A stretch of DNA of 64,000 nucleotides from Pseudomonas sp. G2-4 (lineage in GTDB: Bacteria; Pseudomonadota; Gammaproteobacteria; Pseudomonadales; Pseudomonadaceae), in the NCBI RefSeq assembly GCF_030064125.1, contig NZ_CP125957.1, positions 4,092,001-4,156,000 of the forward strand, read 5' to 3'. The notes under the pieces were generated by a model that made no database searches, was not told where the DNA came from, and saw only the letters and a list, made by a program, of their open reading frames with translations. Positions 52,725 through 64,000 of this stretch are shown piece after piece; within the stretch, counting starts at the first letter, position 1; every line of letters starts with the position of its first letter. Both the position numbers and the translations under genes were made by a program.

Positions 52725-54482
52725 TCACTCCAGAAACGGTAGCGGTGCCTTGGCTGCGCGAATGGCGGCGATCCGGTAATCGGCTTGCGGCAACAAATAC
52801 GCAAAAAAGAAGCGGGCGGTATCCAGTTTGCCAGCGCGCAGTGGATCACTCTCGGGCAGCAACCGAGCGACACGCGCCGTCCGAGCCCAGGCAAAAGCCA
52901 ACAGGGTCAAACCGCACAGTCGCAGAAAATCTCCAGCGACTCGATAGGGGTATTCGCCCTCCTCGGCTGCCTGGTCATGGACCTCTGCCTGCACGCACTC
53001 GAGCTTGTCGCAGAGCAGCGCCAGCTCAGTGCAAAAGCTGGCGCAACCTGCTGTCTGGCCGCCCTCCCGGGCTTCTTCGCGCAAAACCGTGAGCAACTCG
53101 CGGAAGGCGCGGCCCTCATCGCCCAATACTTTGCGCAATAGCAGGTCATTGGCCTGAATCTCGTTGCTGCCCTCGTAAATCATTGCGACTCGACTGTCGC
53201 GCAGGGTCTGCTCAATGGCGAACTCGGTGATATAGCCGTAACCACCGAACACCTGCAAGGCATTGCTGGCCAAACAGAACCCCTGCTCAGTGAAGAAAGC
53301 CTTGATCACCGGCGTCAACAGCCCCGCCAGTTGAAAGGCATGCTGTCGAGTCGCGGGATCTGGGTCATGCTCGGCCTGATCGAGCAAGTGTGCGGCCCAA
53401 TAACCGACTGCGCGCATGCCCTCGGTGTACGCCCGCAACTCCAGCAAAGCGCGCCGTATGGCTGGGTGATAGTGGATCGGGTCGGCAGCCTCGGCGCCAA
53501 TGCCGACCGGTCGATTGGGCGCACGCATTTGCTTGCGCTCCACCGCGTAGGCGTGGGCATTCTGCCAAGCGGCTTCGGCGTGTCCCAGCCCCTGCAGGCC
53601 GACGTGTAGCCGCGCCGAATTCATCATCACGAACATCGCCGCCAAACCGCGATTAGCCTCGCCAATCAGCCAGCCTTGGGCACCGTCGAACGTCAGCGAA
53701 CAGGTGGCGCTGCCCTTGATGCCCATCTTGTGTTCAATACCGTCGCAGCGCACGGCGTTGCCTTGAGCGTCATCCAGGCGTTTAGGCACCAGAAACAGCG
53801 AAACACCACGACTGCCGGCGGGCGCACCGGGCAGGCGGGCCAGCACCAGATGCAGGATGTTTTCGGTCAGGTCGTGTTCGCCTCCGGAAATAAAGATCTT
53901 GTTGCCACTCAGCCGATAGCTGCCATCACTCAGCGGCTCGGCGCGGCAGCGCAACAGGCCGACGTCGCTGCCTGCCTGGGGCTCGGTCAAGCACATGGTA
54001 GGCAATGCCTCACCGCTGACAATCTGCGGCAGATAACGGTCTTTGATCCACTGCGGTGCATGGGCCTTGAGGCACAGATAGGCGCCATGGGCGATGCCGG
54101 TGTACATGGCCCAGCCGTGGTTGCTCGCATAAAGCATTTCCTGCAGTGCGGCATCGAGCAGTTGCGGCAACCCTTGGCCGCCGAACGCCTCATCACAGGC
54201 CAGCGCCGGCCAGCCACCTCCGGCGAATGACCGGTAAGCCTCGACAAAACCGTCCGGGGTACTGACCCGGCCTTCTTCGAAACGGCAGCCCTGGCGATCA
54301 CCGTTGCTGTTGAGCGGCGCCAAGACACCCGTACTGAAACGTCCGGCTTCTTCCAGAACCTGAATCGCCAGTGGTAAGTCCAGGGTGTCGAATGCGGACA
54401 TTTGACCCCACGCCCGAGGTGCCTGCAGCCAATGTTCGAGAATGAATTGCATGTCGCGCAGCGGCGCCTGGTAGTGCCACAT
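52725..54482 (-). CDS. Acyl-CoA dehydrogenase (long form, DmdC/FadE-like)
   Basis: The 585-residue flavoenzyme opens WHYQAPLRDMQFILEHWL, as in the long acyl-CoA dehydrogenases near 590 residues. FAD/substrate motifs CLTEPQAGSDVGLLR and GNKIFISGGEHD and the region with the catalytic Glu, MIYEGSNEIQAND, are present, followed by the C-terminal extension domain. ATG 54482 has TGAGG six bases upstream; ATG 54494 is an alternative. It follows the thiolase gene and is probably co-transcribed with it. The pair should act in a beta-oxidation-like step; the acyl substrate is unknown. Confidence 0.87.
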   Translation of the reverse strand: MWHYQAPLRDMQFILEHWLQAPRAWGQMSAFDTLDLPLAIQVLEEAGRFSTGVLAPLNSNGDRQGCRFEEGRVSTPDGFVEAYRSFAGGGWPALACDEAFGGQGLPQLLDAALQEMLYASNHGWAMYTGIAHGAYLCLKAHAPQWIKDRYLPQIVSGEALPTMCLTEPQAGSDVGLLRCRAEPLSDGSYRLSGNKIFISGGEHDLTENILHLVLARLPGAPAGSRGVSLFLVPKRLDDAQGNAVRCDGIEHKMGIKGSATCSLTFDGAQGWLIGEANRGLAAMFVMMNSARLHVGLQGLGHAEAAWQNAHAYAVERKQMRAPNRPVGIGAEAADPIHYHPAIRRALLELRAYTEGMRAVGYWAAHLLDQAEHDPDPATRQHAFQLAGLLTPVIKAFFTEQGFCLASNALQVFGGYGYITEFAIEQTLRDSRVAMIYEGSNEIQANDLLLRKVLGDEGRAFRELLTVLREEAREGGQTAGCASFCTELALLCDKLECVQAEVHDQAAEEGEYPYRVAGDFLRLCGLTLLAFAWARTARVARLLPESDPLRAGKLDTARFFFAYLLPQADYRIAAIRAAKAPLPFLE

Positions 54483-54564
54483 GGAAAACCTCATAGCGTC
54501 GAGAATTGCAAGGGGCTGTGGCCGGTCACTATTCGCCCGGCGCTGTTCAACGCGGCGATAGTGC

Positions 54565-55803
54565 TCAGCCGCGGTACTGCGGGTTCTCGATCAGCACGGC
54601 CATGCCCTGCCCGCCACCGACACAGGCAGCGGCGATTCCGTAGCGCAGGTGCTGCTCGCGCAGCTGTCGGGCCAGGGTCATCACCAGGCGCAGGCCGGTA
54701 GCGGCCAGTGGGTGCCCGAGGGCAATCGAGCCGCCGCGGCGATTGAGCTTGTGGGTGTCCAACTCCAGCGCCTGGGCCACTGCCAGCACCTGGGCGCCCT
54801 GCGCCTCGTTGATTTCAACCAGGCTGATATCGTCCAGGACCAACCCGCTGCGTTGCAGCAGCAGCTGGATCGCCGGAACCGGGCCGATTCCCATGAACTC
54901 CGGCGCCACGCCGACCACCGCAGTCGCCAGCAGGTTTGCCAGTGCCGGTCGCGTACCGGTCGATGCGCGACCAACCAGCATCGCCGCCGCTCCGTCCACC
55001 ACTGCACAGCTGTTGCCGGCGGTTTGCACGCCCCCCGCATGAATTGCCCGCAACCTCGCCAATGCGGGTAAATCAGTCGGTCGAATGTGGCTGTCGAGGG
55101 TGACTGCGTCTATCCGACGCGGCAGTGTAATGCCCCGTGGCTGATAGCCGTCCAGCTCGAACGACTCGTTGCGCACGGTGACGATTTCATCGGCGAACCA
55201 GCCAGAGGCCTGCGCTTGCAACGCTTGCTCATGGCTGTTGAGGGCATAGGTATCCACCGCCTCGCGACTCAGTCCATGACGCCTGGCAAGGTTTTCCGCC
55301 GTGGCGATCATGTCCAGTCCCGGTGCCGGGTCGAACAGCGCCTCCCAGAGGAAGTCCTTGAAATCCACCGACGCTCCGAGACGAAATCCGTCCCGATGGG
55401 TGTAGGCCGCTATCGGGTTGCGCGACATGGATTCGGCGCCCACACACAGCGCCAGTTCTGCGCCGTCGCGAAGTTGCTCGCCGGCCTGGCGCAGCAGCTC
55501 GAAGCCGGTGGCGCAAATGCGCTGCACCGCCAGCGCCGGCACCTGTTGCGGCACACCGCTGTAAAGACCGATGTGACGTGGCAACAAGTAGGCATCGAAG
55601 CTGGCCTGGGCCATGGAGCCGGCCAATACCGTGTCGACTGTTCGTGGATCGAGCCCGGCACGGGCCAGCACTTCACGACCGACCTTGATCCCCAAATCAA
55701 TGGGCGATACCTGGGCCAGCGCACCGCCGAGGTCGATCCAAGGTGTGCGCACGGCCTCAAGGATCGCCACATCCCTGAACACCGAATATTGCCCTGGGTT
55801 CAT
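54565..55803 (-). CDS. Thiolase (acetyl-CoA acyltransferase)
   Basis: The 412-residue enzyme has the nucleophilic Cys in VQRICATGFELL, the His in GGSIALGHPLAATG and the second Cys in AACVGGGQGMA. The usual NEAFAAQ loop reads NEAQGAQ, a notable change beside the active site. It would cleave a beta-ketoacyl-CoA to acetyl-CoA or make the reverse condensation. It is the first gene of the minus-strand pair with the acyl-CoA dehydrogenase. Confidence 0.87.
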   Translation of the reverse strand: MNPGQYSVFRDVAILEAVRTPWIDLGGALAQVSPIDLGIKVGREVLARAGLDPRTVDTVLAGSMAQASFDAYLLPRHIGLYSGVPQQVPALAVQRICATGFELLRQAGEQLRDGAELALCVGAESMSRNPIAAYTHRDGFRLGASVDFKDFLWEALFDPAPGLDMIATAENLARRHGLSREAVDTYALNSHEQALQAQASGWFADEIVTVRNESFELDGYQPRGITLPRRIDAVTLDSHIRPTDLPALARLRAIHAGGVQTAGNSCAVVDGAAAMLVGRASTGTRPALANLLATAVVGVAPEFMGIGPVPAIQLLLQRSGLVLDDISLVEINEAQGAQVLAVAQALELDTHKLNRRGGSIALGHPLAATGLRLVMTLARQLREQHLRYGIAAACVGGGQGMAVLIENPQYRG

Positions 55804-55890: not shown

Positions 55891-56823
55891 TCAAATCAAT
55901 ACCTGTTCGGCGGGAGAGAAATCACCGAGCAATTCAATGAATGATTGCCGCAACCAACGATTGGCCGGGTCGTAATGGAAACGCGTATGCCAGTACAGAT
56001 GGATGTCGTAGCCGCAAATGTCCCAAGGCAGCGCCACCAGCCGGACATCAGTGATTTCGGCAAACCGCCGTCCTACCGCCAGCGGCACGGTGGCGATCAT
56101 GTCCGACTCGGCCACCAGAAACGGCACGCCCATGAAGCGCGGCAAGCTGAAACGCACACGCCGGGTGATGCCATGGGCGGCCAACTCGCGATCCAGCACA
56201 CTCATGCCGCGCCCTTCGGCCTGGACCGCGACATGCACAGCAGCCTGGTATTGTTCGGCACTCAGGCTGTCACCGATGGTCGGGTGATCGCGGCGCACGA
56301 TGCAGACGAACGAGTGGCTGTACAGCGCCCGATGACGGATCGAGGTGTTGAGCAACCGCGGGAAATAGCCGATTGCCGCGTCCACTTCTCCGGCATCCAG
56401 GCCCTCTTCCAACTGCTCCTGGGACAGCGCCAGAGTGCGAATTCTCAGCTGCGGTGCTTCTCTGTCGAGCATCCGCATCAACCTCGGCAGGAACACCATT
56501 TCTCCAATATCCGACATGCACAGCACCAGTTGCCGCTCGGAGTGTTCGGGAGCGAAACCGGTGGATGGCAGCACTTCGCTGCTGACCATCTCTAGAATCC
56601 GCTGCACCGGCTCGGCGATCTGCAGAGCCCTCGCAGTCGGCTGCATGCCACGGGAAGAACGGATGAACAACGGGTCATCGAATAACGTGCGCAACTTGGA
56701 CAAGGCAAAGCTCATGGCGGGCTGACTGAGCCCCATGAGATCACCGGCCAGGGTCACGCTTTGCTTTTTGCGCAGCGCATCGAAGACTTTCAGCAGGTTG
56801 AGGTCGACGTCCTTTATATCCAT
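55891..56823 (-). CDS. LysR-family transcriptional regulator
   Basis: The 310-residue regulator has an N-terminal winged helix (about 6-65, VDLNLLKVFDALRKKQSVTL and LSQPAMSFALSKLRTLFDDP) and a periplasmic-binding-like effector domain. It is of the NodD/NahR-like subgroup that binds aromatic or other organic acids. It lies between the thiolase/acyl-CoA dehydrogenase pair and the divergent dehydratase cluster, and probably controls the latter. Confidence 0.88.
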   Translation of the reverse strand: MDIKDVDLNLLKVFDALRKKQSVTLAGDLMGLSQPAMSFALSKLRTLFDDPLFIRSSRGMQPTARALQIAEPVQRILEMVSSEVLPSTGFAPEHSERQLVLCMSDIGEMVFLPRLMRMLDREAPQLRIRTLALSQEQLEEGLDAGEVDAAIGYFPRLLNTSIRHRALYSHSFVCIVRRDHPTIGDSLSAEQYQAAVHVAVQAEGRGMSVLDRELAAHGITRRVRFSLPRFMGVPFLVAESDMIATVPLAVGRRFAEITDVRLVALPWDICGYDIHLYWHTRFHYDPANRWLRQSFIELLGDFSPAEQVLI

Positions 56824-56863: not shown

Positions 56864-56881
56864 TCTAGGTCGAAGCCTAGA
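56864..56881. promoter_or_regulatory. LysR-type operator candidate between lysR gene and dehydratase cluster
   Basis: TCTAGG-TCGAAG-CCTAGA is a perfect 6-bp inverted repeat with 6-bp spacer, located 41 bp upstream of the lysR-type start codon and 66 bp before the dehydratase start. The size and place fit a LysR recognition site in a divergent promoter. Confidence 0.55.
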
Positions 56882-56946: not shown

Positions 56947-58659
56947 ATGCCCAGAAAGTTGCGCAGTAATTTTCCCTACGGCTCCTATTTGTGGGCCGTG
57001 CGTGCCGCCCAATGGCGTGCCCTGGGGATTGATGAGAGCGAACTGGAAAAGCCGAAGATCGCAATCGTCAACTCTTCGTCCAACCTGGCAATCTGCTTCA
57101 GTCACCTGGACGGCATTGCCGCCGAAATAAAACAATCGATCCGCGACGCCGGCGCCCTGCCCTTCGAAATTCGCACTGCCGCACCCAGTGACTTCATCAC
57201 CGGTGCCGGTGCGGGTGGCGCCTATATGCTGGCCGCCCGCGACCTCATCACCAACGATATCGAAGTGGCGGTCGAAGGCGCTCAGCTCGATGGCATGATC
57301 TGCCTGGCCTCCTGCGACAAAACAGTACCCGGCCAGTTGATGGCCGCCGCCCGACTGAACATTCCAACGCTGATCGTGGTGTGCGGGTATCAGCCAAGTG
57401 GCGAATACAAGGGCCAGCACGTCGACATCGAAGATGTGTTCATCAGTTCCATGCACGTGGTCACCGGCAAACTGCCGGTCGAAGAGCTGGTTGGCATGGC
57501 ACGCAATGCCATCAAGGGACCCGGCGTCTGCTCGGGCATGGGCACCGCCAATTCCATGCACCTGGTCTGTGAAGCGTTGGGCATGGCCTTGCCCGGCAGT
57601 TCACCCATCGCGGCCAACAGCCCGCAGATGTTTGACTTCGTTCGTCAGGCCGGCAAACGCATCGTCGAAATGGTCGAGGAAGACCTCAAACCCCGCGACA
57701 TCCTGACCCCTGGTGCCTTTGCCAATGCCGTGGCGACCATTCTCGCGGCCGCAGGCTCGGTCAACACCATCAAACACATGCAGGCGGTTGCAGCCGAAGG
57801 CGGCATTGATGTGGACGTCTACCAGCTTTTCAGGGAGCTGGGCAATCAAGTGCCGGTGCTGGTCGGCGTGCGTCCGGTGGGCGAACACAGCATTGAGCAA
57901 ATGGAAGCTGCGGGGGGTGGTCGTGGACTACTCAAGCGCCTGGAGCCTTTGCTGCATGGCGATGTGATGACCGTCACCGGCAAAACCCTGACGCAAAACC
58001 TGCAAGGGGTAGCCATCAGCGACGATGAGGTGATCCGTGCGCTGGACAACCCCTTCGCCACCCAGCCGGCGATCGTGATGCTGCGCGGCAATATCGCGCC
58101 ACAAGCAGGCATCGTCAAATATGGCATCGACCCGAACAAGATGCGCCAGTTCAAGGGCCCGGCAATCTGTTTCGAGCGCTCGGCCGATGCCATCGAAGCG
58201 TTGCAGGACGGGCGCATCCAGCCCGGCCATGTGGTGGTCATGCGCGGTGCCGGTGTACGCGGCGGCCCGGCCATGGGCGGCGGCGCCTCGAAAGTGGTGT
58301 TCGCCATCGATGGGGCCGGGCTCGGCGACCATGTGGCGATGCTCACCGACGGCCATCTCTCGGGGCTGGTGTGCAAAGGCCTGGTGGTCGCCGAGGTGGC
58401 CCCGGAAGCAGCAGTCGGCGGTCCATTGGCGCTGGTCGAAGACGGCGACATCATCGACATCGACCTGGATCTCAACACGCTCAACGCCGACATCAGCGAA
58501 ACGCAAATGCAAGCGCGCCGCGCCCGCTGGCAGCCCATGGCGTCGCAGTTCGGCGGTGGCTGGCTGGATATCTACCGCAACAGCGTGTCCTCCATGGAAC
58601 ACGGTGCCGTGCTGGTCAAACCGCTCGACATCACCGACAAACCGGAGCAGCCGCAATGA
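56947..58659 (+). CDS. IlvD/Edd-family dehydratase
   Basis: The 570-residue protein is a member of the dihydroxy-acid/sugar-acid dehydratase family. Three Fe-S cysteines are in the expected places: Cys50 (AICFSHLDG), Cys123 (ASCDKTVPG, with the Lys that is carbamylated in homologues) and Cys195 (GVCSGMGTANSM). The C-terminal swivelling domain has RGAGVRGGPAMGG and TDGHLSG. The housekeeping ilvD is normally much better conserved and differently placed, so this is a catabolic paralogue acting on a sugar acid or hydroxy acid. Its stop overlaps the next gene by ATGA. Confidence 0.87.
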   Translation: MPRKLRSNFPYGSYLWAVRAAQWRALGIDESELEKPKIAIVNSSSNLAICFSHLDGIAAEIKQSIRDAGALPFEIRTAAPSDFITGAGAGGAYMLAARDLITNDIEVAVEGAQLDGMICLASCDKTVPGQLMAAARLNIPTLIVVCGYQPSGEYKGQHVDIEDVFISSMHVVTGKLPVEELVGMARNAIKGPGVCSGMGTANSMHLVCEALGMALPGSSPIAANSPQMFDFVRQAGKRIVEMVEEDLKPRDILTPGAFANAVATILAAAGSVNTIKHMQAVAAEGGIDVDVYQLFRELGNQVPVLVGVRPVGEHSIEQMEAAGGGRGLLKRLEPLLHGDVMTVTGKTLTQNLQGVAISDDEVIRALDNPFATQPAIVMLRGNIAPQAGIVKYGIDPNKMRQFKGPAICFERSADAIEALQDGRIQPGHVVVMRGAGVRGGPAMGGGASKVVFAIDGAGLGDHVAMLTDGHLSGLVCKGLVVAEVAPEAAVGGPLALVEDGDIIDIDLDLNTLNADISETQMQARRARWQPMASQFGGGWLDIYRNSVSSMEHGAVLVKPLDITDKPEQPQ

Positions 58660-59939
58660 TATTGCGCGACGACGAAAAAGCCATGCTCGCCGGCGACGAA
58701 GGCCCGGCGGTGCGCAAAGCCATGGATTTGCTGGTGCGTTATGGCGAAGCCCTGGATGCGCAATGCCTGGTGGATACGCGAAACGTAGCCGGCACGATCG
58801 GCGCCACCACGCCCTTTTTGCGCCAGTACGGTGATCGTAACGGCGGTATGGATGCGGTGTTCAGCGAGTTCAACCTCGACAGTGCCGAAGTGGTCAGTAT
58901 TCCCAAGGTCAAGGTCTTCAGCAGCCACCTGCAACAGGGTATCGATCCTCGACAAGCCGAACGCCAAGGCATCTCGGAGGATGTGGTACGCATCTATGAA
59001 ACCGGTCAGGCCTACAGCAGCAGCCTGGGCGTGCAACCCTTGAATACCTGTACGCCTTACCAGGTCGGCAACGTGCCGGTAAAAGGCGAGCATTGCGCCT
59101 GGATGGAGTCCTCGGCGGTGATCTACATCAACTCGGTACTCGGTGCCCGGACCAATGCCGAAGGTCGGGAAAGCACTGGCGCGGCGATGCTCACCGGCAA
59201 GCTCCCCTACTGGGGTCTGCACATCAGCGAGAACCGTCGCGGCACCCACCTGATCCAACTGGATATCGAGGTCAGCACCACCGCCGACTGGGGATTGCTT
59301 GGCTACTGGATCGGTGAGCAGGTGCAGGATCGCATCCCGGTCATCGAGGGCCTGAGTCACCAACCGAACCTGGCGCGGCTCAAGCACTTTGGCGCAGCGG
59401 CGGCCTCCAGCGGCGGCGTGGAGATGTTTCATCTGGTCGGTGTCACACCGGAGGCCCGGACCCGCGAGGACGCTTTCGGCTCACGCAAGCCTGAAGGCAC
59501 ATTACGTTTCGGCGAAGCCGAACGACGCTGGGCCTACGAACAAGTCAACCTCACAGCGCGAGATGCCGAAGTCGATTTCGTGATGCTTGGCTGTCCCCAC
59601 TACAGCCTCGAGCAGATCTGGGAGGTCTGCCAGTTGCTAGAGGGCCAACGCCTGAGCCCGAATACCGAACTGTGGATATTCACCGCGGCGTCGATCAAAC
59701 AACTGGCCGACTTGGCCGGCTACACCCGCATCATCGAACAGGCCGGTGGCCATGTAATGACCGATACCTGTTCGGCGATCGGCAAGGTGGTCCCCAAGGG
59801 GACCAAGGTGGCAGCCGTCGACTCGGCCAAACAGGCCCATTACCTGCCGGCGATCATGGGGATCCAGGCCTGGTTCGGTACCACGGCCGATTGCGTGCAG
59901 GCGGCCATCGAGGGGCGCTGGAGAGGAGTACTGAAATGA
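58656..59939 (+). CDS. Aconitase X large (catalytic) subunit
   Basis: The 427-residue protein is the AcnX catalytic domain (DUF521). Conserved cysteines stand in LNTCTPYQ (132), LGCPHYS (313) and MTDTCSAIG (372), the likely Fe-S ligands. AcnX proteins known so far are hydro-lyases: cis-3-hydroxy-L-proline dehydratase (bacteria) and mevalonate 5-phosphate dehydratase (archaea). The small subunit is encoded separately by the next gene (ATGA overlap), the two-subunit form. The substrate in this cluster is not known; the presence of an IlvD-type partner is unusual for hydroxyproline loci. Confidence 0.87.
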   Translation: MILRDDEKAMLAGDEGPAVRKAMDLLVRYGEALDAQCLVDTRNVAGTIGATTPFLRQYGDRNGGMDAVFSEFNLDSAEVVSIPKVKVFSSHLQQGIDPRQAERQGISEDVVRIYETGQAYSSSLGVQPLNTCTPYQVGNVPVKGEHCAWMESSAVIYINSVLGARTNAEGRESTGAAMLTGKLPYWGLHISENRRGTHLIQLDIEVSTTADWGLLGYWIGEQVQDRIPVIEGLSHQPNLARLKHFGAAAASSGGVEMFHLVGVTPEARTREDAFGSRKPEGTLRFGEAERRWAYEQVNLTARDAEVDFVMLGCPHYSLEQIWEVCQLLEGQRLSPNTELWIFTAASIKQLADLAGYTRIIEQAGGHVMTDTCSAIGKVVPKGTKVAAVDSAKQAHYLPAIMGIQAWFGTTADCVQAAIEGRWRGVLK

Positions 59940-60418
59940 GCAAGACCTTCACTCTCAAGGGCCGCAAAGTCGTCGGCGGCCGTTTCGAAGGCGAAGCACT
60001 GGTGACCCGTGACCGCATCTCCGGCTGGGGCGGCATCGACCCGCGCAGCGGCACCGTCATCGAGACTCGCCACGCACTCAAAGGCATCAGCTTCGCCGGG
60101 AAAGTGCTGGTGTTTCCGGGGGCCAAGGGCTCGTCTGGCTGGTCATCGCAGTTCCACATCGCCCGCCTCGCCGGAGTGGCGCCCGGCGCCATGTTGTTCA
60201 ACGAGATGACCGCGAAGATGGGCCTTGGCGCGGTGGTCGTGCACGCCCCGGCCATGACCGACTTCGATGAGGATCCGCTGGAGCGCATTCGTACCGGCGA
60301 CTGGGTCCGCGTCGATGCCGACACCGGGACCATCGAGGTGACCCCGCGCGAGCATCGCCGCGATCGGCATTTGTCAGAAGTTGCGACCGCCCTGGATCGA
60401 ACACCAGACCAGCCGTAA
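59936..60418 (+). CDS. Aconitase X small (swivel) subunit
   Basis: The 160-residue protein is the DUF126/AcnX swivel domain. VFPGAKGSSGWS contains the serine motif (Ser66/67) that forms part of the active site in the holoenzyme, and GAMLFNEMTAKM follows. GAGAGGAG lies upstream of ATG 59936, which overlaps the large-subunit stop (ATGA). Confidence 0.87.
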   Translation: MSKTFTLKGRKVVGGRFEGEALVTRDRISGWGGIDPRSGTVIETRHALKGISFAGKVLVFPGAKGSSGWSSQFHIARLAGVAPGAMLFNEMTAKMGLGAVVVHAPAMTDFDEDPLERIRTGDWVRVDADTGTIEVTPREHRRDRHLSEVATALDRTPDQP

Positions 60419-60516
60419 CCCGAACCCGGAATCCGCTTGCCGAAACAACCGTGACCCGTGGCCCCAGGCCAACGGGCTCGGGGTCGGCTGCCCTTTTCAC
60501 ACTCAAAGGTAGTCAA

Positions 60517-61794
60517 ATGACTCATGTAATCCGCACGGTGCGCCGTACCAGCGCACCCACTGTCCAACACCTGCAGGCTGACGTGTGCATCGCCGGCGCC
60601 GGCATATCCGGAATTTCCGCGGCCCTTGAGGCCGCCGCGCTCGGCAAGCGCGTGGTGCTCTTCGACGCCCTGCCGATGCTCGGCGGGCAGGCAGTCGGCT
60701 CGATCATCGGGACCTTTTGCGGGTTGTTCTCCAATGGTCCGAACCGCCGGTTGCTGACCCATGGCATCGCCGACGGCATCCTCCGTGACCTGGGTGCCTC
60801 GGGGGATCTACACCAGGCTATCGGGCCCTTGACCACGGTGGTCTATTACGACGAAGTGGCGCTGGGTCGCTGGATCGGCCAGAAAGTCCTCGACGCCGGA
60901 ATCACTGTTGTGCTCGGCGCGGTATTGCGCGATGTCGTGCGCGAAGGTTCGCGGGTACAAGAAGTGGAACTGGCCACCCGCTACGGCGATGTACGCGTGG
61001 CGGCCAAGGGCTTTGTCGACGCCAGCGGAGACGCGGCGCTGACCTGGAATGCCGGGTTTGCCTGTCGCGAGCCAGATACGCCTATCTACGGCACCCAGAT
61101 GTTCGTCCTTGAGCATATCAATGAAGCGCACCTGCCCACTCGCCCACAGTTCACCGAACGGGTCAAACAAAAGGCCAAAAGCTACGGCATCGAACGCGAC
61201 GACGGGTTGTTCTTTCAGTTCCCCGGGCGCGGCACTGCCGCCTTCAACATGACCCATATCGAAACGCCTCTGGATCCGGTCGCGGCCTCTCACGTCGCAA
61301 TCGCTGGGCGTCAGCAGGTGGATCAAGTGATCAACTTCCTCCAATCGGAATACCCTGAGGCCTATGGCAAGGCCAAGGTGCGTGCCTACGGGTTGCCAGG
61401 TATTCGCCAGACCCGCTGGATTGTCGGGCATCATCACCTGAGCACCGATGAAGTCCGGGCGGCGACGATGTTCCCGGATGCGGTAGCGCGCACCTCCTGG
61501 CCGGTGGAACTGCACGGCGACACCAGTGGTTATCAATGGGAGCCCTTTGGTGACGATCACATCCACAGTGTGCCGTTGCGCAGCATGCTTCCCGAAGGCA
61601 GCGACAACCTCGTTGTCGCCGGACGCTGCATCGACGCCGATGCCGCGGCGCTGTCGAGCGTCCGCGTAATGGGACCCTGTATCGCGATGGGGGCCGCTGC
61701 GGCCCATGCACTGGATCTCGCCGGCCCGGACGGCAGGTTGAGCGACATACCCGCCGAGGCCTTGCGCGAGCGGCTGGCGTTCAATCTGGAATAG
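60517..61794 (+). CDS. FAD-dependent oxidoreductase (FAD_oxidored family)
   Basis: The 425-residue flavoprotein has the dinucleotide-binding motif GAGISGISAALEAAALGKRV near residue 27 and a second family motif MLGGQAVGSIIGTFCG, typical of FAD_oxidored proteins. VVAGRCIDADAAALSSVRVM near the C-terminus contacts FAD in the family. ATG 60517 has AAAGGT upstream. It is separated from the AcnX small subunit by 98 bp without a clear terminator. It likely oxidises or reduces the pathway intermediate before or after dehydration. Confidence 0.82.
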   Translation: MTHVIRTVRRTSAPTVQHLQADVCIAGAGISGISAALEAAALGKRVVLFDALPMLGGQAVGSIIGTFCGLFSNGPNRRLLTHGIADGILRDLGASGDLHQAIGPLTTVVYYDEVALGRWIGQKVLDAGITVVLGAVLRDVVREGSRVQEVELATRYGDVRVAAKGFVDASGDAALTWNAGFACREPDTPIYGTQMFVLEHINEAHLPTRPQFTERVKQKAKSYGIERDDGLFFQFPGRGTAAFNMTHIETPLDPVAASHVAIAGRQQVDQVINFLQSEYPEAYGKAKVRAYGLPGIRQTRWIVGHHHLSTDEVRAATMFPDAVARTSWPVELHGDTSGYQWEPFGDDHIHSVPLRSMLPEGSDNLVVAGRCIDADAAALSSVRVMGPCIAMGAAAAHALDLAGPDGRLSDIPAEALRERLAFNLE

Positions 61795-61811
61795 GATTCA
61801 AGCAGTTCGAA

Positions 61812-61836
61812 GCGCCCACCGCTCAAACGTGGGCGC
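61812..61836. promoter_or_regulatory. Hairpin in the leader of the MFS gene
   Basis: GCGCCCAC-CGCTCAAAC-GTGGGCGC forms a perfect 8-bp stem with a 9-nt loop, between the FAD oxidoreductase stop and the MFS start. No U-tract follows on the plus strand (an A-rich run does), so it is more likely an mRNA-stability or attenuation element than a terminator. Confidence 0.5.
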
Positions 61837-61872
61837 CACTACAAAAAAATAAAAATATAGTGGAGAACGTAC

Positions 61873-63237
61873 ATGTCACAGTCCCGCACCCTTGATGTGG
61901 CGGCGCTCATAGAAGATCGCAAGCTGTCACGCTTCAACTATGTGGTGATTCTGGTCTCGGTCCTGGTCACCTTCCTCGACGGCTTCGATTTGCTGGTGCT
62001 GTCCCACACGGCTTCCTACATTGCCGACGAAATCGGCCTGGACAAGATTCAACTGGGCGAGATCTTCTCGGTCGGCCTGCTGGGGATGATGCTCGGAGGC
62101 TTCTTCTTCGGCTACTTGGGTGATCGTATCGGTCGGCGCCCCACGATCATTTTTTCGACCTGCTCATTCGGCGTGTTGACGCTGCTATTCGCCATGGCCA
62201 ACAGCTATGAATCGCTGATGGTCTTGCGCTTTTTCAATGGCTTCGCCCTGGGCGCAATGTTGCCGCTGTGCTGGGCCTTGAACATCGAGTTCGTGCCCAA
62301 GCGTTATCGCTCCACGGTGGTGACCATCATCATGGTCGGATTCAGCCTCGGCAGCGCAATGGCCGGACCACTCACGGTGTGGCTAGCGCCGCATATCGGT
62401 TGGCAAGGCGTGTTCGTGTTCGGCGGCATACTGACCCTTGCCGCCAGCGTGCTGTTGTTCTTCACCCTGCCCGAATCGGTCCGGTTCCTGGCCAGCAAGC
62501 GCAAAGGCCCGGATAAGATCGCAGCGATTCTCAAGCGTATGGACCCGAACCTGGATGTGCGGTCGAGTGACCGATTCGTCCTGCTGGACGAGCCGGATAT
62601 CGGCCAAAAGGACTTTCGTATCAGCCAGCTGTTCATCGGCCGATTGAAATGGCTCACGCCGATGATCTGGCTCGGCTACTCGGCCAGCTCCATGGCCATG
62701 TACTTCCTCGCCTCCTGGAGCCCGCTGGTTTACCAGTACGCCGGCTTTGATCGTGCAACCGCTTCGTGGGTCAGCTCCATCGCCTCTTTCAGCGGCGCGA
62801 TGGCCGGTCTGGCGATGATGCGTTTCGTCGATACCCGCGGCCCTTACATGGTGATGATCTATCCGCTGCTGGCGCTACCGTTCCTGCTGGTATTGGGCAT
62901 CACCGGCATGCAGGGAACCGCCTTTCTCATGCTAAGCCTGGTCGGTGCCGTGTTCGTCAAGGGCTCCCACTATGGAATCCTCAGTATCGCCGGGGTCTTC
63001 TACCCCAGCGCCATACGCGCCAATGGCGCTGGCTGGGCCACCTCGATCGCCAAGATCGGTTCGATCCTCGGCCCATTGCTCGGTGCTTATGTGCTGAACA
63101 GCGGCATGCCGGTGGTCAAGAGCTTTCTAGTCCTCGCTATCTGCCCGGCCGTGCTGGCGGCCAGTGCGTTGGCGATCGGTCATCTGACTCGCAGTGACCG
63201 TGCAGCAGAACCTCTGCCCGCGCCTTCGCGATCGTGA
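61873..63237 (+). CDS. MFS transporter, aromatic acid:H+ symporter type
   Basis: The 454-residue, 12-helix carrier has DGFDLLVLSHTASYIADEIG in helix 1 and the MFS signature GYLGDRIGRRPTI between helices 2 and 3, both characteristic of the AAHS family (PcaK/BenK-like organic-acid uptake). ESVRFLASKRK marks the central loop. It should import the substrate of the adjacent catabolic enzymes by proton symport. Confidence 0.87.
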   Translation: MSQSRTLDVAALIEDRKLSRFNYVVILVSVLVTFLDGFDLLVLSHTASYIADEIGLDKIQLGEIFSVGLLGMMLGGFFFGYLGDRIGRRPTIIFSTCSFGVLTLLFAMANSYESLMVLRFFNGFALGAMLPLCWALNIEFVPKRYRSTVVTIIMVGFSLGSAMAGPLTVWLAPHIGWQGVFVFGGILTLAASVLLFFTLPESVRFLASKRKGPDKIAAILKRMDPNLDVRSSDRFVLLDEPDIGQKDFRISQLFIGRLKWLTPMIWLGYSASSMAMYFLASWSPLVYQYAGFDRATASWVSSIASFSGAMAGLAMMRFVDTRGPYMVMIYPLLALPFLLVLGITGMQGTAFLMLSLVGAVFVKGSHYGILSIAGVFYPSAIRANGAGWATSIAKIGSILGPLLGAYVLNSGMPVVKSFLVLAICPAVLAASALAIGHLTRSDRAAEPLPAPSRS

Positions 63238-63279
63238 CCGGCACCCTCTGATCCGTAACACCTGACCCACACACGCCCT

Positions 63280-63301
63280 GCCGCGTCGTCATCGACGCGG
63301 C
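63280..63301. other. Perfect hairpin before the OprD-like porin gene
   Basis: GCCGCGTCG-TCAT-CGACGCGGC is a 9-bp GC-rich stem with a 4-nt loop, 43 bp after the MFS stop. There is no T-run, so it may be a Rho-independent-like pause or a processing site between MFS and porin. Confidence 0.5.
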
Positions 63302-63355
63302 CCGGCAAGACTCGTCCTGAAAAACCTTCATCCGCACGCCTGGAGACCAATAAAA

Positions 63356-64000
63356 ATGAACAGGAATCGATTATTTGCCACAGCGGTGTTGCTCTTGTGC
63401 CACTTCACTAACGCCCAGGCAGACTTCGTCAAAGACAGCACCGCAACATTGACTACCCGTAACTTTTACTTGAACCGGGACTTCCGCCAGAGCGGCGCGC
63501 CCCAGGCCAAGGCCGAAGAATGGACCCAAGGTTTCTTCGCCGAATTTCAGTCTGGGTACACGGATGGCACCTTGGGGTTCGGACTCGACGCCCTGGGTGA
63601 ACTGGGGATCAAGCTCGACTCGGGTCCGGGTCGGCGAGGCACCGGGCTACTGCCCTATGGGCCGAACAGCAACCAGCCAGTGGACGACTACAGCGAACTG
63701 GGCCTGACCGCGAAAATGCGCCTTTCCCGGACCCAGCTCAAAGTGGGAACCCTGATGCCGATCCATCCGCTGGCCTACTACAGTGATACCCGCTTGCTGC
63801 CTTCGACTTTCACCGGCGCCTATTTGACCTCGAGCGAGATCGACGACCTGTCCGTCACCGCGGCGAGATTGACCGAAGCCAACGGCCGCGATTCGTCGAG
63901 CAATGACGACATCAGCTACGCCGGCCAGAACAGCGATCATCTGGACCTGCTCGGCGGTGACTATACGCTGGGCAAGAACCTGACCTTGCGCTATCACCAT
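63356..64000 (+). CDS. OprD-family outer-membrane porin (5' part)
   Basis: The frame runs from ATG 63356 to the window end (215 codons, open). It has a signal peptide (MNRNRLFATAVLLLCHFTNA, cleavage after QA), then DFVKDSTATLTTRNFYLNRD, followed by WTQGFFAEFQSGYTDGTLGF and GLTAKMRLSRTQLKVGTLMP, the typical OprD N-terminal half. OprD porins take up specific acidic or basic small molecules, and here it probably supplies the substrate of the LysR-controlled pathway. The full length would be about 420 residues. Confidence 0.88.
   Translation, partial: MNRNRLFATAVLLLCHFTNAQADFVKDSTATLTTRNFYLNRDFRQSGAPQAKAEEWTQGFFAEFQSGYTDGTLGFGLDALGELGIKLDSGPGRRGTGLLPYGPNSNQPVDDYSELGLTAKMRLSRTQLKVGTLMPIHPLAYYSDTRLLPSTFTGAYLTSSEIDDLSVTAARLTEANGRDSSSNDDISYAGQNSDHLDLLGGDYTLGKNLTLRYHH

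Follow-up and report, generated by a model that had tools for sequence, protein, structure and literature searches.

The window analyzed here, a 64,000-nucleotide stretch of Pseudomonas sp. G2-4 DNA (C1:4092001-4156000, in a genome of 6.65 Mb on a single contig), contains a gene cluster encoding a two-subunit aconitase X (AcnX), a flavin adenine dinucleotide (FAD)-dependent oxidoreductase of the PF12831 (FAD_oxidored) family and an IlvD/Edd-family dehydratase. Comparison with related loci identified AcnX and the flavoprotein as the core of a conserved unit, with IlvD as a frequent but not obligatory third enzyme. Judged by its residues and its place in the AcnX tree, the AcnX of this unit is neither a hydroxyproline nor a mevalonate-phosphate enzyme. 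We consider it probable that the enzymes of the unit subject an imported hydroxy acid to a flavin-dependent oxidation and to one or two dehydrations. The fuller reading that we favor, with somewhat less than even confidence, is that the flavoprotein, the new-clade AcnX and, usually, IlvD act in turn on an acid that would most likely be a side-chain-hydroxylated arylpropanoate, feeding the breakdown of hydroxycinnamates or arylpyruvates. The arylpropanoate taken by itself is a more tentative assignment still, made from sequence and gene context.

As a preliminary description of this DNA had stated, the genes for two hydro-lyases, an FAD oxidoreductase, a major facilitator superfamily (MFS) carrier and an OprD-family porin all lie on one strand. 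They follow each other on the plus strand as IlvD (56947..58659; PF00920 and PF24877), which belongs to a distinct subfamily, the AcnX large subunit (58656..59939; PF04412), the AcnX small, or swivel, subunit (59936..60418; PF01989), the Pfam-assigned flavoprotein (60517..61794), an MFS carrier near the aromatic acid:H+ symporter (AAHS) family (61873..63237) and the porin (63356..64000; PF03573). The window ends inside the porin gene, which encodes 409 amino acids at full length in the genome; a second AAHS-like MFS gene follows it beyond the window. Both ATGA overlaps that had been reported, IlvD/AcnX-large at 58656-58659 and AcnX-large/AcnX-small at 59936-59939, were read directly in the letters.

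A distinct clade of bacterial aconitase X

Both AcnX subunits score far above the cut-offs of their families (PF04412, 393.6 bits against 31.5; PF01989, 78.1 against 27). In a 44-row tree, the 29 rows of the clade grouped together on a long stem with support of 100/100, apart from AtAcnX, from the fused AcnX encoded elsewhere in the same genome and from related bacterial forms; TkAcnX and other long rows are unsurely placed in this tree. Residues were counted over 89 large-subunit rows at 50% identity or more (86 of them distinct) and 88 small-subunit rows (84 distinct). Cys132, Cys313 and Cys372 of the large subunit are invariant, as are Glu151, Ser152, Ser153, Lys392 and Tyr396, and the small subunit always keeps Ser66, the predicted catalytic general base, and Trp31. 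Ligation of a [4Fe-4S] cluster by three cysteines was shown for phosphomevalonate dehydratase (PMDh) in PMC10040528.

According to PMC8184944, Asp203 and Thr72 (AtAcnX numbering) bind the amine of the hydroxyproline substrate, and Asn79 of TkAcnX contacts the 5-phosphate. None of the 89 rows has Asp at the first of these sites (Cys 61, Ala 22, Val 3, Thr 2, Ser 1), and the Thr72 site in the small subunit is Gly in 87 and Ala in 1 of the 88 rows. The Asn79 equivalent is likewise never Asn (Leu 86, Val 2, Thr 1). Among 14 other bacterial AcnX, 12 retain the amine-binding Asp and 13 the Asn of TkAcnX and AtAcnX. The residues for the carboxylate and beta-hydroxyl are retained and those for the amine and at position 79 are lost; because both the amine-binding Asp and the PMDh Asn are missing, the clade represents neither known AcnX type. 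This agrees with the preliminary description, which had set the cluster apart from the known AcnX roles in cis-3-hydroxyproline and mevalonate-5-phosphate dehydration. The small subunit has also gained Trp69 (87/88 rows), which, with Trp31, is located near Ser66. The enzyme may use a [4Fe-4S] cluster to dehydrate a 3-hydroxy acid that carries neither amine nor phosphate, and its pocket may be aromatic or hydrophobic.

It is hardly credible that this AcnX is a cis-3-hydroxyproline (C3LHyp) dehydratase. It belongs to the same Pfam family and matches the C3LHypD NCBIfam model, but at 236 bits against a cut-off of 700, and besides the changed Asp203 and Thr72 sites and the separate clade, the genome already has a fused AcnX (C1:3070527-3071732) in what appears by eye to be a hydroxyproline-like cluster, with racemase/epimerase-like, amino-acid-oxidase-like, dihydrodipicolinate synthase-like and ABC transport genes. 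With the C3LHyp dehydratases of Type I/IIa, the new clade shares the fold family and the catalytic Ser, Glu, Lys and Tyr; unlike Type I, it has two subunits (as does IIa), and it differs from these enzymes in its three PMDh-type cysteines, in the loss of Asp203 and Thr72, and in its location outside a hydroxyproline cluster.

A mevalonate-like acid, or another branched 3-hydroxy acid, lacking phosphate is also a very improbable substrate, if less so. The three-cysteine pattern is that of archaeal PMDh, and phosphomevalonate dehydratase is the name given in some sources to relatives of AcnX; the archaeal Type IIb enzymes (TkAcnX, ApPMDh) have in common with the new clade two subunits, cysteines at sites A, 1 and B, and the Glu-Ser-Ser motif. 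In the new clade, however, the Asn79 equivalent is replaced throughout, Trp31 stands in place of Leu27, the additional Trp69 is near the catalytic Ser, the context is bacterial and catabolic, and no mevalonate genes were found among the scanned neighbors, which are part of all neighbors.

In lacking the landmark residues, the clade also fits the published description of the bacterial two-subunit AcnX of Type IIc-f, to which it may belong. These types are given as uncharacterized in PMC8184944 (2021) and as of unknown function in PMC10040528 (2023).

Two further AcnX contexts were observed. Cupriavidus necator plasmid p1 (L089, 9980-16050; loci are numbered with L and genomes with G) encodes a different AcnX, about 40% identical, along with TctC; three RraA-like aldolase genes were recognized there by eye. 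In L153, L167 and L169, AcnX genes of other clades are found beside what appear by eye to be recF, dnaN and dnaA, an unexpected setting for a catabolic dehydratase.

Recurrence of the AcnX-flavoprotein unit

A contig scan yielded 407 pattern stretches, 390 of which encode relatives; the best 80 of these 390 were kept and, with further loci, make up a set of 94 AcnX-clade loci, 83 of them with full flanks. Annotation and counts come from tblastn searches with selected references, an approach blind to families beyond those references; initial gene calls were rough. L089 was excluded as a member of another AcnX subclass, L177, L178 and L180 were omitted as loci already counted, L179 was included, and L116 stands for the genome of L007. 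Two loci entered the set twice (as L060/L160 and as L065/L067), so the distinct loci number 92, including 81 with full flanks. Variovorax and its relatives dominate the sample.

Within 10 kb of AcnX-large in the full-flank loci, the small-subunit gene is present in 82/83 (the remaining locus, L031, has a partial match), an FAD_oxidored gene, counted at 45% identity or more to one reference, in 81/83, and an IlvD gene of the same subfamily in 68/83 (79/81 and 66/81, respectively, for the flavoprotein and IlvD in distinct loci). Other neighbors are TctC (50/83), IclR (48/83), LysR (28/83, at an identity of at least 40% and in the same 10-kb range), the AAHS-like carrier (23/83) and a TfdA-like TauD protein (16/83, and 18/94 overall). 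Ignoring TauD, IlvD, the flavoprotein and AcnX come in six arrangements. With L and S for the AcnX subunits, the commonest signatures among the 94 loci are FAD-L-S-IlvD (36), IlvD-TauD-L-S-FAD (14) and FAD-L-S (13), followed by IlvD-L-S-FAD (11), which is the window type, and divergent IlvD (6). The constant content combined with shuffled order argues for shared function rather than an inherited neighborhood. The unit is uncommon, being detected in 6 of 298 Pseudomonas genomes at an E-value of 1e-120; in L175, it is intact from LysR to the second MFS gene at a different chromosomal place, where it adjoins what reads by eye as a phosphate-uptake operon.

The pairing of IlvD with AcnX, on which the preliminary description had centered, therefore holds in part: the two recur together in several gene orders, but the steadiest AcnX partner is the flavoprotein. 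For 16 genomes without a nearby IlvD, the subfamily was located elsewhere in 8 and was not found in the other 8. Genome-wide search of 12 of these (two on cut contigs) identified it at 57-79% identity in 7, and the best IlvD match in the remaining 5 was at most 41%. Among four further genomes of the same phylum, G530 has the IlvD gene on the contig of its AcnX locus, at a distance of about 13 kb; the subfamily was not found in G706, G578 and G605, which are rated 100% complete, and several other genomes without a detected IlvD are draft bins. One genome with a distal IlvD has it paired with an FAD_oxidored gene that is missing from its AcnX locus (L109, L036).

These genomes are the chief argument for IlvD and AcnX acting on separate substrates and sharing only a regulator and an importer in a general carboxylate island. 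We regard this as unlikely, given the association of IlvD with AcnX across six arrangements, the 8 additional genomes that carry the subfamily elsewhere, and the ATGA overlaps in the window.

No paper linking IlvD (dihydroxy-acid dehydratase) with AcnX/DUF521 was found in the searched literature, most subscription journals being outside it, and a broader search with the same restriction returned no description of the IlvD-AcnX-FAD set. As far as the searchable literature goes, the set is new as a combination. The suggestion that the cluster degrades a hydroxylated acid by an undescribed route, made previously with no substrate named, is thus borne out as regards a conserved and undescribed unit; the degradation itself is something we infer.

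Variant loci were also noted. The subfamily IlvD gene contains an internal stop in L111 (8527-10200) and is split in two, close to a masked stretch, in L115 (8967-10296), in each case possibly through decay or an assembly fault. In L116 (11613-14863), a GMC oxidoreductase gene, identified by eye, and an aldehyde dehydrogenase gene are located beside AcnX and the PF12831 gene is absent; the same genome encodes the subfamily IlvD and an FADb-like protein elsewhere (L113). In the metagenome-assembled loci L021, L023 and L037, genes for an Amdase (PF17645, EutA-like), TctC and a third FAD_oxidored type precede AcnX.

IlvD, the flavoprotein and the transport proteins

The window IlvD matches both Pfam domains of its family (PF00920, 333.8 bits; PF24877, 181.5 bits) and is below every NCBIfam cut-off, including those for the biosynthetic dihydroxy-acid dehydratase (TIGR00110, 480.2 against 618.15) and the L-arabinonate dehydratase equivalog (NF009559, 361.2 against 882). 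Its identity with the IlvDs of the other clusters (78 rows, 75 distinct) is 54-94%, and that with the solved dihydroxy-acid dehydratase 6nte and the four other IlvD/Edd proteins of the genome is 30-38%. In common with dihydroxy-acid and pentonate dehydratases, the cluster IlvDs have both domains, the CDK and TDG-x-x-SG motifs, and three cysteines (Cys50, Cys123 and Cys195, present in 78/78 rows) that align with the Fe-S cysteines of 6nte; they differ from 6nte in overall identity and at column 89, where its Glu is replaced by Ala in 70 of the 78.

The flavoprotein covers the full PF12831 model (257.3 bits against a cut-off of 27). The FAD_oxidored proteins of the other main locus groups are only 19-29% identical to that of the window, so a distantly related protein seems to have taken the place of this partner. 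For the MFS carrier, TIGR00895 (AAHS) is the best of 52 families matched, at 330.7 bits against a cut-off of 418.55, which makes it a relative outside the curated family; the galactonate-type model TIGR00893 gives only 112.5 bits. The solved chains nearest to the OprD porin are 2y0h/3t0s (porin) and the cis-aconitate porin OpdH. Across the loci, the carriers vary: AAHS-like proteins are encoded in Pseudomonas, in the Burkholderia group and in L166, TctC is the partner in most other Burkholderiales loci, and a TRAP carrier is found in Paroceanicella, in L031 (DctM) and, by eye, in L179.

Several of these features would also suit the degradation of a polyhydroxy plant acid (an aldonate, aldarate, tartrate, quinate or similar, perhaps the partner of hydroxycinnamate esters), which we consider possible, though on the unlikely side. 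IlvD would then produce a 2-keto-3-deoxy acid, AcnX would perform a second dehydration and the flavoprotein would oxidize one carbon, in a Weimberg-like scheme with other enzymes. Two dehydrations and one oxidation are the balance of the Weimberg route, L-arabinonate and galactonate dehydratases are among the catabolic IlvD relatives with solved structures, and TctC, TRAP and OpdH-like porin partners fit such acids. Against this, no aldolase or semialdehyde dehydrogenase was recognized among the identified recurring neighbor families (some families being unidentified), the window carrier is AAHS-like with a poor TIGR00893 score, and two Trp residues are near the catalytic Ser of AcnX.

Substrate clues from neighboring genes

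Neighboring genes for ligases of the feruloyl-coenzyme A (CoA) synthetase type (Fcs-type), a p-hydroxycinnamoyl-CoA hydratase/lyase, a TfdA-like dioxygenase and an AAHS-like carrier point, without proving it, to phenylpropanoid acids. In Pseudomonas flavescens (L011), a ferulate operon, with ech, vdh-like, fcs-like, thiolase (aat) and acyl-CoA dehydrogenase (acd) genes, is divergent from IlvD, behind LysR. Its Ech passes the p-hydroxycinnamoyl-CoA hydratase/lyase NCBIfam model (504.5 against 276 bits), and the aldehyde dehydrogenase (vdh-like) passes none of the listed models. The Pseudomonas ferulate operon, ech-vdh-fcs-aat-acd, encodes a CoA-dependent route, and none of its five genes is an AcnX, IlvD or PF12831 gene. 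Only the last two adjoin the unit in the window (52725-55803), as minus-strand neighbors outside the core: an acyl-CoA dehydrogenase (52725..54494; Pfam), which resembles the product of the final gene of the L011 operon and is 74% identical to that of the gene beside fcs-vdh-ech there, and a ferulate-operon-type thiolase (54565..55803; Pfam, and TIGR01930 above cut-off) that is 78% identical to the L011 copy. A thiolase gene, with or without acd, adjoins LysR in 4 of 10 Pseudomonas loci (the window, L008, L009 and L011).

Other lineages show comparable links. Four Pigmentiphaga-type loci have the single fcs-type gene of the genome, with an ECH gene, behind IlvD on the same strand. In G706 and G578, where IlvD was not found, an Fcs-SDR-Acd block adjoins FAD-AcnX, with LysR between them only in G706. 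An Fcs-type gene is also located near L072, and Fcs-type and thiolase genes are found near the distal IlvD of L110. Altogether, an Fcs-type gene is present within 10 kb in 8/83 loci from four lineages, compared with 0/15 windows around other AcnX (including L004 and L089) and 0/4 around other IlvD. Of 16 records, 9 have one fcs-type copy, 5 have two and 2 have none (one of these a plasmid only); by our own estimate, a chance neighbor of this type within 10 kb would be expected in about 0.3-1.4% of genomes.

The structure nearest to the TfdA-like TauD proteins is the 2,4-D dioxygenase 5bke (238 bits). Acceptance of cinnamates by TfdA had no support in the searched literature and plays no part in the argument made here. 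The IclR regulator of L045 is nearest to a PcaR/PobR model, below cut-off, a LigB-type gene whose cluster occurs in 20 loci is in the flank of the same locus, and L028 contains an intradiol dioxygenase gene. As an observation apart, TfdA-like genes (e.g., L016, 9083-9997) recur with AcnX, FAD_oxidored and usually IlvD genes, which may be a natural context of these dioxygenases.

A number of observations weigh against an arylpropanoate pathway. The Fcs-type link is confined to a minority of loci and was noticed post hoc, and clustering is to be expected of catabolic genes in any case. G488 carries the complete unit and no Fcs-type match at an E-value of 1e-120. In 6 of the 10 Pseudomonas loci (L010, L012, L013, L165, L175 and L176), no ferulate-type gene was found beside LysR, L165 having a different block, FadB-thiolase-thioesterase. 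The ferulate genes of the window genome are split: ech-vdh-fcs adjoin an OprD-like gene at a distance of about 1 Mb from the unit (L173, 7074-11468). The fcs-type ligases score 696-739 with a general acyl-CoA synthetase model, slightly short of its cut-off of 777, so their ferulate specificity is by context only. The TctC, TRAP and OpdH-like porin partners fit non-aromatic di- and tricarboxylates equally well, the AlphaFold model of the flavoprotein (predicted local distance difference test score of 86) has a common flavoprotein fold that gives no function, and AcnX and the flavoprotein are kept in 8 genomes that yielded no subfamily IlvD.

Proposed pathway

Under the arylpropanoate reading, the OprD porin and the AAHS-like carriers would import the acid. 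The flavoprotein step is placed first because this enzyme is the most constant partner; it would make or remove a hydroxyl, keto or C=C function ahead of the dehydrations. AcnX, with a predicted [4Fe-4S] cluster on Cys132, Cys313 and Cys372, would dehydrate a 3-hydroxy acid across C2-C3, Ser66 of the small subunit abstracting the C2 proton. A 3-hydroxy-3-arylpropanoate would thereby yield a hydroxycinnamate as the free acid, for entry into the feruloyl-CoA ligase route, and IlvD could convert the 2,3-dihydroxy analog (an arylglycerate) to an arylpyruvate. The TfdA-like dioxygenase, where present, might oxidize C2, either releasing an aryl ether or adding a second hydroxyl. Genomes without IlvD may use the hydroxycinnamate exit only, as the G706 and G578 loci suggest.

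In its most specific form, which we put forward as doubtful, the AcnX clade would be the first hydroxycinnamate maker of the aconitase superfamily, a CoA-free 3-hydroxy-3-arylpropanoate dehydratase working with an IlvD-family arylglycerate dehydratase, both fed by the flavoprotein and, in many bacteria, by the TfdA-like dioxygenase, with a lignin-type aryl ether acid as the natural substrate of the latter. If the arylpropanoate reading is correct, this would be the first job assigned to the clade and a second, free-acid entry into ferulate catabolism and into lignin and plant-acid degradation; an aromatic substrate may also explain the role of TfdA-like dioxygenases before herbicides. For a bacterial AcnX clade that fits the Type IIc-f description, the analysis provides constant partners, a predicted cluster type, a set of pocket residues lost and gained, and a short list of substrates, so that the role of this orphan clade is now directly testable.

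The LysR regulator and its predicted operator

The preliminary description had placed a LysR gene with a palindromic operator upstream of the cluster, and both were located. The LysR-type regulator (55891..56823; PF03466 and PF00126) is divergent, on the minus strand, and the palindrome TCTAGG-N6-CCTAGA is at 56864..56881. A single such repeat in 123 bases is insignificant alone (about 0.4 expected by our own estimate), and it was not found in the Burkholderia-group intergenic regions compared. Among eight compared Pseudomonas intergenic regions, both arms are exact in six and imperfect in L012 and L165, and the six spacer bases vary; because the arms are conserved while the spacer varies, the palindrome is likely a real operator, predicted to be that of LysR.

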